Assembly: GCA_027000645.1 (NCBI GenBank)
Contig: JALTNO010000283.1
Location: 1-43,484, forward strand
Direction of reading: 5' to 3'
Source of the DNA: Paracoccaceae bacterium
GTDB lineage: Bacteria; Pseudomonadota; Alphaproteobacteria; Rhodobacterales; Rhodobacteraceae
Length of the DNA stretch: 43,484 nt
Below are positions 34,620-39,143 of this stretch, piece after piece; positions within the stretch are counted from its first letter, which is position 1; the number at the start of each line of letters is the position of its first letter. A program made the position numbers and the translations under genes. A model generated the notes under the pieces. The model ran no database searches and was not told the origin of the DNA. It was given only the letters and a program-made list of their open reading frames with translations.

Positions 34620-34656
34620 CATGTGCGAAGACGCGCCGATGTCAGTGGATTGTCAG
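34616..34656. promoter_or_regulatory. CTGACAT half site plus tandem ATGTCAG-N4-TTGTCAG direct repeat (11-bp period)
   Basis: upstream of the PepSY-RR-HK unit; same core upstream of cytochrome b gene. Confidence 0.55.
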
Positions 34657-34679
34657 GCCGCCAGGTCCATACTGTCCCG

Positions 34680-35000
34680 ATGAAGCTGCGCATCCTTCCG
34701 ATTCTCCTGCTTGCCGCTGCCCGGCCGGTGCCGGTCGGGGCCTCGGACGACAACCAGCGCGCGCGCGAAGCGGTCGAGGCGCAACAGGCGCTGCCGCTGG
34801 CCGAGATCCTGCCCGGCATCCTTGAACGGTTCGATGCCAGCCTGCTGGAGGCCGAATTCGAAGGCGACCGCAACGGGCCGGTCTATGAATTCGAGCTGAT
34901 CACCGGATCGGGGCAGATGATCGAGGTAAAGGTTGACGCGGCCACTGGCGAGGTGATCGAAATCGAAGGAGATCGCAGCGAGGAAGGGATGGAAGACTGA
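34680..35000 (+). CDS. PepSY domain periplasmic protein
   Basis: signal peptide then FEGDRNGPVYEFELITGSGQMIEVKVDAATGEVIEIEGD. Confidence 0.85.
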   Translation: MKLRILPILLLAAARPVPVGASDDNQRAREAVEAQQALPLAEILPGILERFDASLLEAEFEGDRNGPVYEFELITGSGQMIEVKVDAATGEVIEIEGDRSEEGMED

Positions 35001-35671
35001 TGCGGGTTCTGGCGGTCGAGGACGACCCGGATATCCTGGCGGACGTGAAGGCGGCGCTCGAATCCTCGGGTTTCAGCGTGGACACCTGCGAAGACGGCGA
35101 AGAGGCGTGGTTTCTCGGCGATACCGAGGATTACGTTCTGGTGGTGCTGGATCTGGGCCTGCCGGGCATGGACGGGCTGAGCGTGCTCAAGCGCTGGCGC
35201 GCGAACGGTCGCGAGATGCCGGTCCTGGTGCTGACCGCCCGCGGTGCCTGGCACGAGCGCGTCGAGGGCATCGAGACCGGCGCCGACGACTACCTGCCCA
35301 AGCCCTTCCGCATGGAGGAACTGGTCGCCCGGGCGCGGGCCCTGGTGCGCCGTTCGGGCGGGATGGGGGCGCCGGTGCAGAGGATGGGCGATCTGACCGT
35401 GGACACCAACCGGATGACGGTGTCGCTGCGCGGCGTTCCGGTGCCGGTGACGGCGCTGGAATATCGCCTGCTGGCCTACCTGCTGCTCAACCGCGACCGG
35501 ACCGTGCCGCCGGGCGAACTGCTCGAACATCTCTATGGTGACGACGACGCGCGCGAGGCCAACGCGCTCGAGGCGGTGGTGGCGCGGCTGCGGCGCAAGC
35601 TGGGCAAGGGCGTGATCGGCACCCGCCGCGGTTTCGGCTATTTCCTCGAGCCGGGGGAGAGCGGCGGGTGA
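35000..35671 (+). CDS. OmpR/PhoP-family response regulator
   Basis: MRVLAVEDDPDILADVKAALESSGF...LDLGLPGMDGLSVLKRWR; winged helix. Confidence 0.93.
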   Translation: MRVLAVEDDPDILADVKAALESSGFSVDTCEDGEEAWFLGDTEDYVLVVLDLGLPGMDGLSVLKRWRANGREMPVLVLTARGAWHERVEGIETGADDYLPKPFRMEELVARARALVRRSGGMGAPVQRMGDLTVDTNRMTVSLRGVPVPVTALEYRLLAYLLLNRDRTVPPGELLEHLYGDDDAREANALEAVVARLRRKLGKGVIGTRRGFGYFLEPGESGG

Positions 35672-37020
35672 AGGGGCGCTCGCTGCGGCTGCGGCTGGTC
35701 GCGGCCAGCGCGATTTCGGTGATGGTGGCGCTGGCGCTGGCCTTTTTCGGCCTGACCCGGCTGTTTGCCTCGCATGTGGAACGCCAGGCGGTGCATGAGC
35801 TGACCGTGCAGCTCGACCAGCTTCTGGCCGGGATCGAGCGCGACGCCGATGGCCGGCTGGTGGTGAGCGACGGCCCCAGCGACGCCCGCTTCGTCCAGCC
35901 CCTGGGCGGGCTTTACTGGCAGATCGAGGCCGAGGGCCGGCAGTTGCGCTCGCGCTCGCTGTGGGATTTCGTCATGCCCCTGCCGGTGGAGGATCTGTCC
36001 GACGGCACCATCCGTGTCCGCACCCTGCCAGGGCCGGGGGGCACGCGGCTGCTGGCGGTGCAGCGCCGGGTGATCCTGCCCGCCCGGCTGGGCCGTGTGC
36101 CCCTGGTCGCGGCGGTGGCCACCGATACCCGGCGGCTGGATAAGGCGGTCGAGGAATTTCGCGAGGATCTGCTGCCCTATACCGGGCTGCTGGCGGTGTT
36201 CCTGATCCTGGCAGCAGGGATCCAGGTGGTCGTGGGCCTGCGCCCGCTCGACAAGGTTGGGCGCAAGGTGGCCGAGGTGCGCTCGGGCGAGATTTCGCGC
36301 CTGGGCTCGGAATTCCCGTCCGAAATCCAGCCCCTTGCGCAAGAGGTCGATGCATTGCTGGCCCAGCGCGAACGCGACATCGAGCAGGCCCGCCGGCGCG
36401 CCGGGGATCTGGCGCATGGGCTCAAGACCCCGCTTCAGGCGCTTCTGGGCGAGGCCGGGCGGCTGCGCGCGGCCGGGCAGGAAGCGGCGGCCGATGCGAT
36501 CGAGCAGATCACCGACACCATGCGCCGGCACGTGGACCGGGAACTTGCGCGGGTGCGCGTGGCTGCCCGCGCCGCCTCGGCGCAGTGCGACCTGGCCGAG
36601 GTTGCCGGGCGGGTGGTCGCGGTGGTGCGGCGCGCGGCCGGGGGAGACGGGTTGCTGTGGCAGCTGGACATTCCCGCCGGAACCCTTGTCGCGGCCGAGG
36701 CCGAGGATGTGCTCGAAATCCTCGGTGCGCTGGTGGAAAATGCCGCCCGCTATGCCCGCAGGCAGGTCCGCCTGAGCGCTGCGGAGCAGGACGGACGCGT
36801 GGTCCTGTCGGTCGAGGATGACGGTCCCGGAATGCCCGACGACCTGATCGGCCGCCTCGGATCGCGTGGCGTGCGTGCCGATGAAAGCGGCCCCGGAACC
36901 GGGCTGGGCCTGGCCATCGCCCGCGAGGTTTCCGAGGCCCTGGGCGGCGGGCTGGAGCTTGGCCGGGGGGCTCTGGGCGGCTGCCGGGTCCGGGTCGTCC
37001 TGCCGCGGGCGGCAATCTGA
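35668..37020 (+). CDS. PhoQ-like sensor histidine kinase
   Basis: N-terminal TM, HAMP-like segment, RAGDLAHGLKTPLQALLGEAGRL, DDGPGMPDDLIGRLGSRGVR, GTGLGLAIAREV; GTG start overlapping RR. Confidence 0.92.
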   Translation: MKGRSLRLRLVAASAISVMVALALAFFGLTRLFASHVERQAVHELTVQLDQLLAGIERDADGRLVVSDGPSDARFVQPLGGLYWQIEAEGRQLRSRSLWDFVMPLPVEDLSDGTIRVRTLPGPGGTRLLAVQRRVILPARLGRVPLVAAVATDTRRLDKAVEEFREDLLPYTGLLAVFLILAAGIQVVVGLRPLDKVGRKVAEVRSGEISRLGSEFPSEIQPLAQEVDALLAQRERDIEQARRRAGDLAHGLKTPLQALLGEAGRLRAAGQEAAADAIEQITDTMRRHVDRELARVRVAARAASAQCDLAEVAGRVVAVVRRAAGGDGLLWQLDIPAGTLVAAEAEDVLEILGALVENAARYARRQVRLSAAEQDGRVVLSVEDDGPGMPDDLIGRLGSRGVRADESGPGTGLGLAIAREVSEALGGGLELGRGALGGCRVRVVLPRAAI

Positions 37021-37034
37021 CATTTCGCTGACAG
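37017..37034 (+). promoter_or_regulatory. CTGACAT-N4-CTGACAG direct repeat (11-bp period) upstream of cytochrome b-SHP-DHC
   Basis: read directly; same core as 34639..34656 in inverse orientation. Confidence 0.55.
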
Positions 37035-37059
37035 CGCGGATCAGGGAGCGATCAGCGCC

Positions 37060-37092
37060 CCTTTGCGAAACTCCTCCCGAGTTGAGCAAAGG
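37060..37092 (+). promoter_or_regulatory. 5'UTR hairpin sequestering the cytochrome b ribosome-binding site
   Basis: CCTTTGC-GA-AACTC-CTCCC-GAGTT-GA-GCAAAGG; AAAGG ends 8 nt before ATG 37101. Confidence 0.7.
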
Positions 37093-37100
37093 TCGTTCGG

Positions 37101-38258
37101 ATGATGAATCAGTCGCAGATCCTCGCCCCCGATGCGCGCGCCGCCCGGCACCAGGTCTGGGACGTTTTCCTGCGCCTGTTTCACTGGTCGCTGGCGGCGT
37201 CGGTCACGGTGGCGCTGGTGACGGGGTTCCTTCTGGATGCCTCGTGGGTCCGGCTGCACCTGGGCGCGGGCATCCTTGCGGTGATCCTCGTGATGGCGCG
37301 GATCGTCTGGGGGTTTGCCGGCCCGGCCTATGCCCGGTTCGAGCAGTTCCTGCCGCGCCCGGGCGCACTGCGCGCCTATCTGCGCGAACATCTCGCCGGG
37401 GCGCCCCGTCGCCGCCATGTCGGTCACAACCCGCTGGGCGCGCTGATGGTGGTGGCGCTGCTGCTGGCCGTTCTCGGGCTGGGCGCCACCGGTCTTGCCT
37501 ATCTGGGCGGCGGGCTGAAGACCGGGCCGCTGGCCACGATCCTGCCGGCCACGCAGACCGGGTTCTGGTCCGAAACCCATGAAGCCCTGGCCGCGATCAT
37601 CCTCGGCCTGATCGTACTGCATCTTGGCGGCGTGATTCATGAAAGCCGCCGCTGCGGCGAAAACCTGGCGCGGGCCATGGTCACCGGCTGCAAGGAGGCC
37701 CGCTCGGGCGATCTGGTCGCCCCGCACCGGCCGGCCAGGCCGATCCTGGCGGCGGCGGTTGTCCTGGCCCTGCTGGCCTCGGGCGGTGCGGCGGTGGTCG
37801 CCCTGTCAGGCCGGCCGCTGCAGGACCCGCCGGTGGCGGCGGCCGAATTCCCCGCCGTTTACGCCGATGAATGCGCCGCCTGTCACATGGCCTATCACCC
37901 GGCGCTGAGATCGGCTTCGTCCTGGCAGGCGCTGATGGCCCGGCTCGACGACCATTTCGGCGAGGATGCCAGCCTGCCCGACGAGACGGGCGCCGAGATC
38001 ACCGCCTGGCTGACGGCCAATTCCGCCGAAACCGTGGACAACCGCCCCGCCAGCCTGTGGCGCGACCTGTCGCCCCTCCCGGTCGTGGCCTTGCCCGACA
38101 CCCCGCAATGGCAGGAGCTGCACGAGAACGTGGATCCGGCGCTTTTCAAGCGGCGCGCGGTCTATTCGCGGTCGAACTGCGCGGCCTGCCACCGTGACGC
38201 CGAAAGCGGCTGGTTCAGCCCCTTCGCAATTTCCATTCCAAAGGAGAACACGCAATGA
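37101..38258 (+). CDS. cytochrome b561-type membrane protein fused to a C-terminal diheme cytochrome c (DHC-like) domain
   Basis: LRLFHWSLAASVTVALVTGFLL...HLGGVIHESRR; then ECAACHMAY and NCAACHRDA heme motifs. Confidence 0.9.
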   Translation: MMNQSQILAPDARAARHQVWDVFLRLFHWSLAASVTVALVTGFLLDASWVRLHLGAGILAVILVMARIVWGFAGPAYARFEQFLPRPGALRAYLREHLAGAPRRRHVGHNPLGALMVVALLLAVLGLGATGLAYLGGGLKTGPLATILPATQTGFWSETHEALAAIILGLIVLHLGGVIHESRRCGENLARAMVTGCKEARSGDLVAPHRPARPILAAAVVLALLASGGAAVVALSGRPLQDPPVAAAEFPAVYADECAACHMAYHPALRSASSWQALMARLDDHFGEDASLPDETGAEITAWLTANSAETVDNRPASLWRDLSPLPVVALPDTPQWQELHENVDPALFKRRAVYSRSNCAACHRDAESGWFSPFAISIPKENTQ

Positions 38259-38650
38259 AAAAAGCCCTGATCCTGCCCGTCCTGCTGGCGATGGCGCCTC
38301 CGGCCTTGGCCGGGGATACCTCGCCCGGGGCGCTGATCGAGGCCTACAGCGCCCAGTCCGGTTCGGCGCCGGTGCCCGAAAACGGCAAGGCCCTGTTTCT
38401 GGGCAAGCATGTCGGGGGCAAGCCCGATACGCCCTCATGCGCGACCTGCCACACGAACGATCCCCGCAAGGGCGGTCAGGCACGGACCGGAAAGCCGATC
38501 GACCCCATGGCCCCTTCGGTGAATCCGAAGCGCTTCACCGATACCAGGTTCGTCGAGAAATGGTTTCGCCGCAACTGCAACTCGGTCCTGGGGCGCGAAT
38601 GCAGCGCGCAGGAAAAGGCGGACATCATCGCCTGGCTGAGCAGCCTGTGA
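38255..38650 (+). CDS. sphaeroides heme protein (SHP)-like high-spin cytochrome c, DUF1924 family
   Basis: signal peptide, CATCH heme motif, KWFRRNCNSVLGREC; Asn at predicted mature position 88. Confidence 0.88.
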   Translation: MKKALILPVLLAMAPPALAGDTSPGALIEAYSAQSGSAPVPENGKALFLGKHVGGKPDTPSCATCHTNDPRKGGQARTGKPIDPMAPSVNPKRFTDTRFVEKWFRRNCNSVLGRECSAQEKADIIAWLSSL

Positions 38651-38681: not shown

Positions 38682-39143
38682 ATGAAACGCAACATTCTTC
38701 TTGCCTCGCTCATCATCGTGGCGATGCCCGCGCTTGCCGATGACGGGCGCATGATACGGCCGGTCACGAACGCATTGACCCAGTCCGAGTGCAGCGCCTG
38801 TCACATGGCCTATCCGGCCGGGTTCCTGCCGGCCCGGTCGTGGAAGAAGATCATGACCACGCTCGAAGATCATTTCGGCGAGGACGCGTCGCTGGACGAA
38901 GCCAGCCGGGCCGAGATCGAGGCCTATCTGGTGGCCAATGCGGCCGATGCCGGCGGGCGGCGGTCGGGGGTGCTGCGGCGGCTGGATGCGGCCGACACGC
39001 CCATGCGGATTTCCGAACTGCCGTGGTTCAGGCGCGAACACAGCGGCGAGGTGTCGCCGCGCCGGCTGAAGAAGGCCGGGTCCTGGGCCAACTGCAACGT
39101 CTGCCACCGCGGCGCGGAAAAGGGCTATTTCGAGGACGACTGA
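38682..39143 (+). CDS. periplasmic diheme cytochrome c (DHC)
   Basis: signal peptide; ECSACHMAY...SWKKIMTTLEDHFGEDASLDE...NCNVCHRGAEKGYFED. Confidence 0.9.
   Translation: MKRNILLASLIIVAMPALADDGRMIRPVTNALTQSECSACHMAYPAGFLPARSWKKIMTTLEDHFGEDASLDEASRAEIEAYLVANAADAGGRRSGVLRRLDAADTPMRISELPWFRREHSGEVSPRRLKKAGSWANCNVCHRGAEKGYFEDD

Follow-up and report, generated by a model that had tools for sequence, protein, structure and literature searches.

A hairpin spanning the predicted promoter and Shine-Dalgarno sequence of a cytochrome b-SHP-DHC operon: a candidate start-site-selected element in Rhodobacteraceae

The SHP locus and its operator

The stretch of DNA analysed here (the window) comprises 43,484 nucleotides of a contig from a Paracoccaceae bacterium. 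Its forward strand carries a gene for a PepSY protein (34680-35000; Pfam PF03413, E=6.7e-11), an OmpR/PhoB-family response regulator (RR, 35000-35671; Pfam Response_reg and Trans_reg_C), a sensor histidine kinase (HK, 35668-37020; Pfam HATPase_c and HisKA) and then, on the same strand after an 80-bp gap, a cytochrome b561/diheme cytochrome c fusion (cyt b, 37101-38258; Pfam PF01292 and PF09626), an SHP-type cytochrome (DUF1924, 38255-38650; Pfam PF09086, E=2.7e-37) and a soluble diheme cytochrome c (DHC, 38682-39143; Pfam PF09626). The listed ORF of the DHC begins at ATG 38658, and a signal-peptide-like stretch follows the second ATG, at 38682. The best NCBIfam matches of the response regulator are PmrA, TctD and QseB, all under the cut-off.

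This gene order matches that of the six-gene SHP operons, Orf1(PepSY)-RR-SK1-cytB/mDHC-SHP-sDHC, for which regulation by SK1 and a possible divergent promoter have been proposed (PMC2909971). In the gene-organization section of that paper, and at its regulatory and promoter terms, we found no operator, -10 or hairpin. In the literature that we found, the regulation of SHP operons has so far been proposed only from gene order, and the present analysis yields a precise operator, predicted start sites and predicted leaderless regulator mRNAs for their PepSY-linked system.

Upstream of the PepSY gene, two putative half-sites of the response regulator, TGTCAG and TTGTCAG (34640-34656, forward strand), precede at the common 11-bp spacing a hexamer, CATACT (34668-34673), that promoter comparison predicts to be the -10 of the PepSY-RR-HK promoter. 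ATG 34680 lies 6 nt past CATACT, so that this mRNA is predicted to be leaderless, and it is likely to be the true PepSY start, rather than that of the longer GTG ORF at 34623. This arrangement, with an ATG at the predicted +1, also occurs at eight other loci (L055, L046, L047, L156, L158, L162, L164 and L168). In three of these the PepSY gene is divergent (L046, minus strand, operator at 533; L047, operator at 530; L055, operator at 506) and has the conserved leader CAGGGCAATCC(C/T)GCCC, in which a small GGGC/GCCC hairpin follows soon after the predicted start.

A pattern search located a 38-bp operator with four half-sites, TGAC-N7-TGAC-N7-RTCA-N7-RTCA, at 37018-37055 on the forward strand. 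Its first TGA is the stop codon of the kinase gene (37018-37020). This is the only exact match in the genome of the window, while each of the three closest relatives has two, one in the gap between the kinase and cyt b genes and one between divergent PepSY genes of the same cluster. The operator was found in 21 of 397 genomes of the family, and a reversed-pattern control in none of them. It is also present in the kinase-cyt b gap of two more distant loci (L006 and L036). In the family genomes (L152-L169) its neighbours are often divergent genes for small signal-peptide (PepSY-like) proteins rather than cyt b alone, which points to a regulator family that is wider than the SHP operons.

Several features of OmpR/PhoB-type promoters were found here: tandem half-sites with an 11-bp period stand in place of a -35 element, with a -10 at a fixed distance. 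PhoB-type promoters of Escherichia coli and Sinorhizobium meliloti likewise have direct-repeat half-sites with this period in a box that replaces the -35, and the S. meliloti PhoB boxes lie 22-25 nt before mapped starts (PMC3616915). The operator-to-start distance in the window, 24 to the predicted +1, agrees with that spacing. Unlike those promoters, however, the operator of the window has four half-sites in a near-palindrome that is usable in both directions, and the regulator linked to it, its putative activator, is PepSY-associated and nearer to PmrA, TctD and QseB.

A hairpin in front of cyt b and its counterparts in relatives

Between the operator and cyt b lies a hairpin (37060-37092, forward strand), whose 5' strand consists of CCTTTGC (37060-37066), GA (37067-37068) and AACTC (37069-37073), its apical loop of CTCCC (37074-37078) and its 3' strand of GAGTT (37079-37083), GA (37084-37085) and GCAAAGG (37086-37092). 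The last of these contains AAAGG (37088-37092), the likely Shine-Dalgarno (SD) sequence, 8 nt before ATG 37101; in the relatives AAAGG or GAGAGG stands at the same 8 nt. All letters and positions of the original prediction agreed with the sequence, including those of GGGAG (37044-37048), which is the spacer between the last two half-sites of the operator. Its proposal that the hairpin sequesters the SD was likewise borne out in folding, which predicts occlusion.

RNAfold forms this hairpin, with z = -2.13 against dinucleotide shuffles of a 101-nt segment. The 45-nt element has an energy of -16.7 kcal/mol, which 14 of 1000 shuffles reach. The 43-kb window contains the exact architecture (7 bp, a 2x2 internal loop, 5 bp and a loop of 3-8) a single time, and five mononucleotide shuffles do not contain it; a looser class, which requires 12 or more of 14 Watson-Crick pairs, has seven members in the window and 0-7 in the shuffles. 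As 28% of the window's 45-nt segments are equally stable, the stability of the hairpin is ordinary for GC-rich DNA. What raises it above chance, as judged from sequence comparison, is that three relatives have it in the same position.

Relatives were sought in 54 genomes of Ruegeria, 21 of Aliiroseovarius, 25 of the genus of Thiosulfatihalobacter and two of the window's own genus, as well as in the family samples (397 genomes) and in plasmids. The kinase-cyt b junction with the hairpin also exists in Thiosulfatihalobacter (L055), where it is a perfect 12 bp, in Aliiroseovarius (L046) and in Ruegeria (L047). The widened search added Ruegeria copies alone, with a leader identical to that of L047, which leaves four distinct leaders in total. 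The cyt b proteins of the window and the three relatives form one clade (support 100/99), in which 0.65-0.84 amino-acid changes per site separate the relatives from the window. The hairpin is absent from the more distant junctions L006 and L036.

Compensatory changes, one of the points on which the original prediction was to be judged, were seen when the four leaders were followed in a hand-made structural register, with one bulged A placed in Aliiroseovarius and Ruegeria. Three of the 13 followed pairs have two-sided changes: in the order window, Thiosulfatihalobacter, Aliiroseovarius, Ruegeria, pair 2 reads C-G, U-A, C-G, U.G, pair 4 reads U-A, U-A, C-G, C-G, and pair 7 reads C-G, U-A, A-U, A-U. 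The outcome is nevertheless divided. Pairing is kept, and the paired cells on an automatic alignment exceed those of most shuffles (14 of 500 reach them), but the covariation counts on that alignment are not significant, being reached by 65 of 500 shuffles. The arms of each leader form 11, 12, 11 and 10 Watson-Crick pairs with one another (same order) as against 8-11 when arms are swapped, and in a swap of the 8-nt spacer among 11 spacers from promoters of the set the native one gave the lowest hairpin energy in all four leaders, with a tie between Aliiroseovarius and Ruegeria; we rely on these two swap tests, neither of which removes shared ancestry. In Ruegeria, whose fold is the weakest of the four, the minimum-energy fold is a different hairpin.

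These data bear on the possibility that only the promoter is functional and that the complementarity is incidental, having arisen once in the ancestor of the clade, in part because a pyrimidine-rich spacer faces the purine-rich SD. The single origin in one clade, the non-significant automatic covariation, the related junctions that do without the hairpin and the many equally stable segments of the window all speak for it. On the other hand, the divergence within the clade should have scrambled a free spacer, yet pairing persists through the three two-sided changes, and in none of the four leaders does a foreign spacer do better than the native one. We consider incidental pairing unlikely, although of the alternatives it deserves the most serious attention.

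The dyad might also work at the DNA level, as the binding site of a second regulator that extends from the -10 to the SD, and not as an RNA element. The perfect 12-bp inverted repeat of Thiosulfatihalobacter would suit such a site, as would the core AAACT, which all four leaders share unchanged in their 5' arm and which faces AG(W)TT or GTTT. The outer arms, however, do not hold to one sequence but vary in pairs, and the pattern SAAACT-N7-AGWTTS has no match in the genome of the window, while in the relatives it occurs at unrelated places, 4-9 times per genome on both strands as against 0-4 for the control. A second operator thus seems rather improbable.

A predicted promoter in the 5' arm and the two expected transcripts

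Promoter comparison places an extended -10, TGC-GAAACT (37064-37072, hexamer at 37067-37072, forward strand), 11 bp past the operator and within the hairpin's 5' arm. We compared 23 gene-ward promoters at the hexamer that follows the last TCA[GC] by 11 bp. Position 2 of this hexamer is A in 22 of them, G fills the second position of the preceding TGn in 17, and +1 falls on a purine in 18; an ATG stands on the predicted +1 in 7 of the 23, the window's PepSY promoter included. Since many of these promoters are interrelated and their hexamer was recognized by visual inspection in the discovery set, a held-out set is the fairer test. There, 22 of 31 directions, which include antisense ones and two probably spurious sites, carry A at position 2; more ATGs at +1 were found as well. 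Taken as a sequence pattern, the geometry of operator and -10 spacing is well supported, and we hold it with high confidence.

This shared geometry predicts that transcription of the cyt b-SHP-DHC operon starts at 37079 (+/- 2), where the 3' arm begins. The predicted +1 is G in the window, in Aliiroseovarius and in Ruegeria, and A in Thiosulfatihalobacter. With such a start the operon's own mRNA would lack the 5' arm and could not fold the hairpin.

It had been proposed that translation of the operon is gated by an RNA switch, thermometer or protein binder, and that the apical loop may form a pseudoknot with the upstream GGGAG. The predicted occlusion of the SD and the GGGAG/CTCCC complementarity, which is real in the window, are in keeping with a regulated leader of this kind on the main cyt b transcript. 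Gating of that transcript is not supported, given the predicted start: it lies downstream of 37060, a case that the original prediction itself had named as counting against it, and leaves the 5' arm out of the main mRNA. Furthermore, neither the pseudoknot partner nor the tandem GA/GA mismatch is conserved: the former is lost in all three relatives, and the latter, though present in the window, is found there alone. We therefore regard this reading as very unlikely. Its particular forms likewise found no support. A thermometer would be built on a GA/GA loop confined to the window, with a 5' arm predicted to be absent from the main mRNA; for a pseudoknotted leader, L055, L046 and L047 have, where the window has GGGAG, spacers that lack complementarity to their own loops; and a known riboswitch or cis-regulatory RNA family found no match near threshold in an Rfam 15 search of the leader (best at most 17.5 bits, as against gathering scores of at least 40).

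In Thiosulfatihalobacter the predicted short mRNA would start with AUG and encode MFDKRQTQ (L055, 2921-2946), its final UGA sharing bases with the cyt b start codon (AUGA); this is possibly a leaderless mini-ORF. At two other loci (L050 and L052) the operator geometry has +1 coincide with the first base of the cyt b ATG, and a leaderless cyt b mRNA is predicted.

The cost of opening the SD was obtained from partition-function calculations for the long and short RNAs. Over the four leaders it amounts to 3.4-9.4 kcal/mol in the long RNA (1.6-9.2 when cut at +20) and 0.1-0.9 kcal/mol in the short RNA ending at +20. For the window the long RNA requires 8.3-9.4 kcal/mol (6.2-7.1 when cut at +20) and the short RNA 0.8 kcal/mol when it ends at +20, or 2.7-3.1 once 40 nt of the coding region are included, since these pair somewhat with the SD; in short RNAs extended in this way the SD is unpaired to only 41-81%. 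On these calculations, the long RNA is predicted to be poorly translated and the short RNA well.

A long RNA would arise by read-through from the kinase gene. The kinase stop is 40 nt from the hairpin, which would place the hairpin out of reach of a ribosome terminating there. A stable stem between two transcription units could also be a processing, attenuation or termination site of the read-through mRNA, but no U-tract follows it, a terminator scan of the junction found no terminator in the 80-bp gap and did not call the hairpin, and all four leaders keep an SD in the 3' arm, always 8 nt before the ATG. Such a role is hardly credible.

Promoter choice as a proposed control of translation

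We suggest the following model. The phosphorylated regulator would bind the 38-bp operator and start the cyt b-SHP-DHC mRNA at approximately 37079. The promoter spacer and -10 would double as the 5' arm of the hairpin, so that the operon's own mRNA, with a 22-nt leader, would lack this arm and have its SD free. Transcripts from the leaderless PepSY-RR-HK promoter that run past the kinase stop would, in turn, carry both arms; the read-through mRNA would fold the hairpin and hide the SD, and the cytochromes would remain untranslated from the long message. The choice of promoter would thus set whether the message is translatable. The hairpin probably acts, if at all, solely on this read-through mRNA.

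A start-site-selected anti-SD hairpin, as in phage T4 gene e, is in our judgment the best explanation, with a probability of roughly 0.57. The operator, its spacing to the -10 and the hairpin of four distinct leaders come from sequence and comparison, whereas where transcription starts, whether the regulator binds, read-through and the silencing of translation are what we infer; the role of the hairpin as a silencer of read-through, drawn from four distinct leaders and folding, we rate at slightly better than even. That one DNA segment serves both as an activator-dependent promoter and as the anti-SD 5' arm, and gives an AND-type, leak-proof output in four genera, we put at even odds.

In phage T4, the long early RNAs of gene e (lysozyme), soc, 49 and I-TevI hide the SD in a hairpin, while late promoters within the DNA of the 5' arm give short RNAs that lack the arm and are translated (PMC3014915). 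Both properties are predicted for the window: on folding, the long RNA forms a stable hairpin whose 3' arm holds the SD, and a start at 37079 from an internal promoter in the 5'-arm DNA excludes that arm. In contrast to T4, the locus is a bacterial chromosomal or plasmid one whose long RNA would encode the regulator, and the inner promoter would be fired by a two-component regulator in place of a phage late sigma factor.

Start-site-selected hairpins over a ribosome-binding site (RBS) are known from phage T4 and from insertion sequences. Among the latter, IS10 and IS50 are protected against read-through. IS200 uses RBS occlusion plus a terminator against impinging transcripts (PMC3196728). Unlike the IS200 structure, the hairpin of the window belongs to a resident cytochrome operon, and the source of the read-through would be the operon's own regulator genes. 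Our literature search, of incomplete coverage, returned no bacterial chromosomal case of such a hairpin. If the model is true, bacteria use these hairpins against leaky output of autoregulated regulator operons: basal or autoregulatory read-through would make no heme proteins, and the cytochromes would await activation of the inner promoter by the regulator.

Copies of the whole operon also occur on plasmids of Ruegeria sp. THAF33 and YS9 (L110 and L111), near a copper-translocating P-type ATPase and with a leader identical to that of the other Ruegeria copies, which suggests mobility and a possible metal link.
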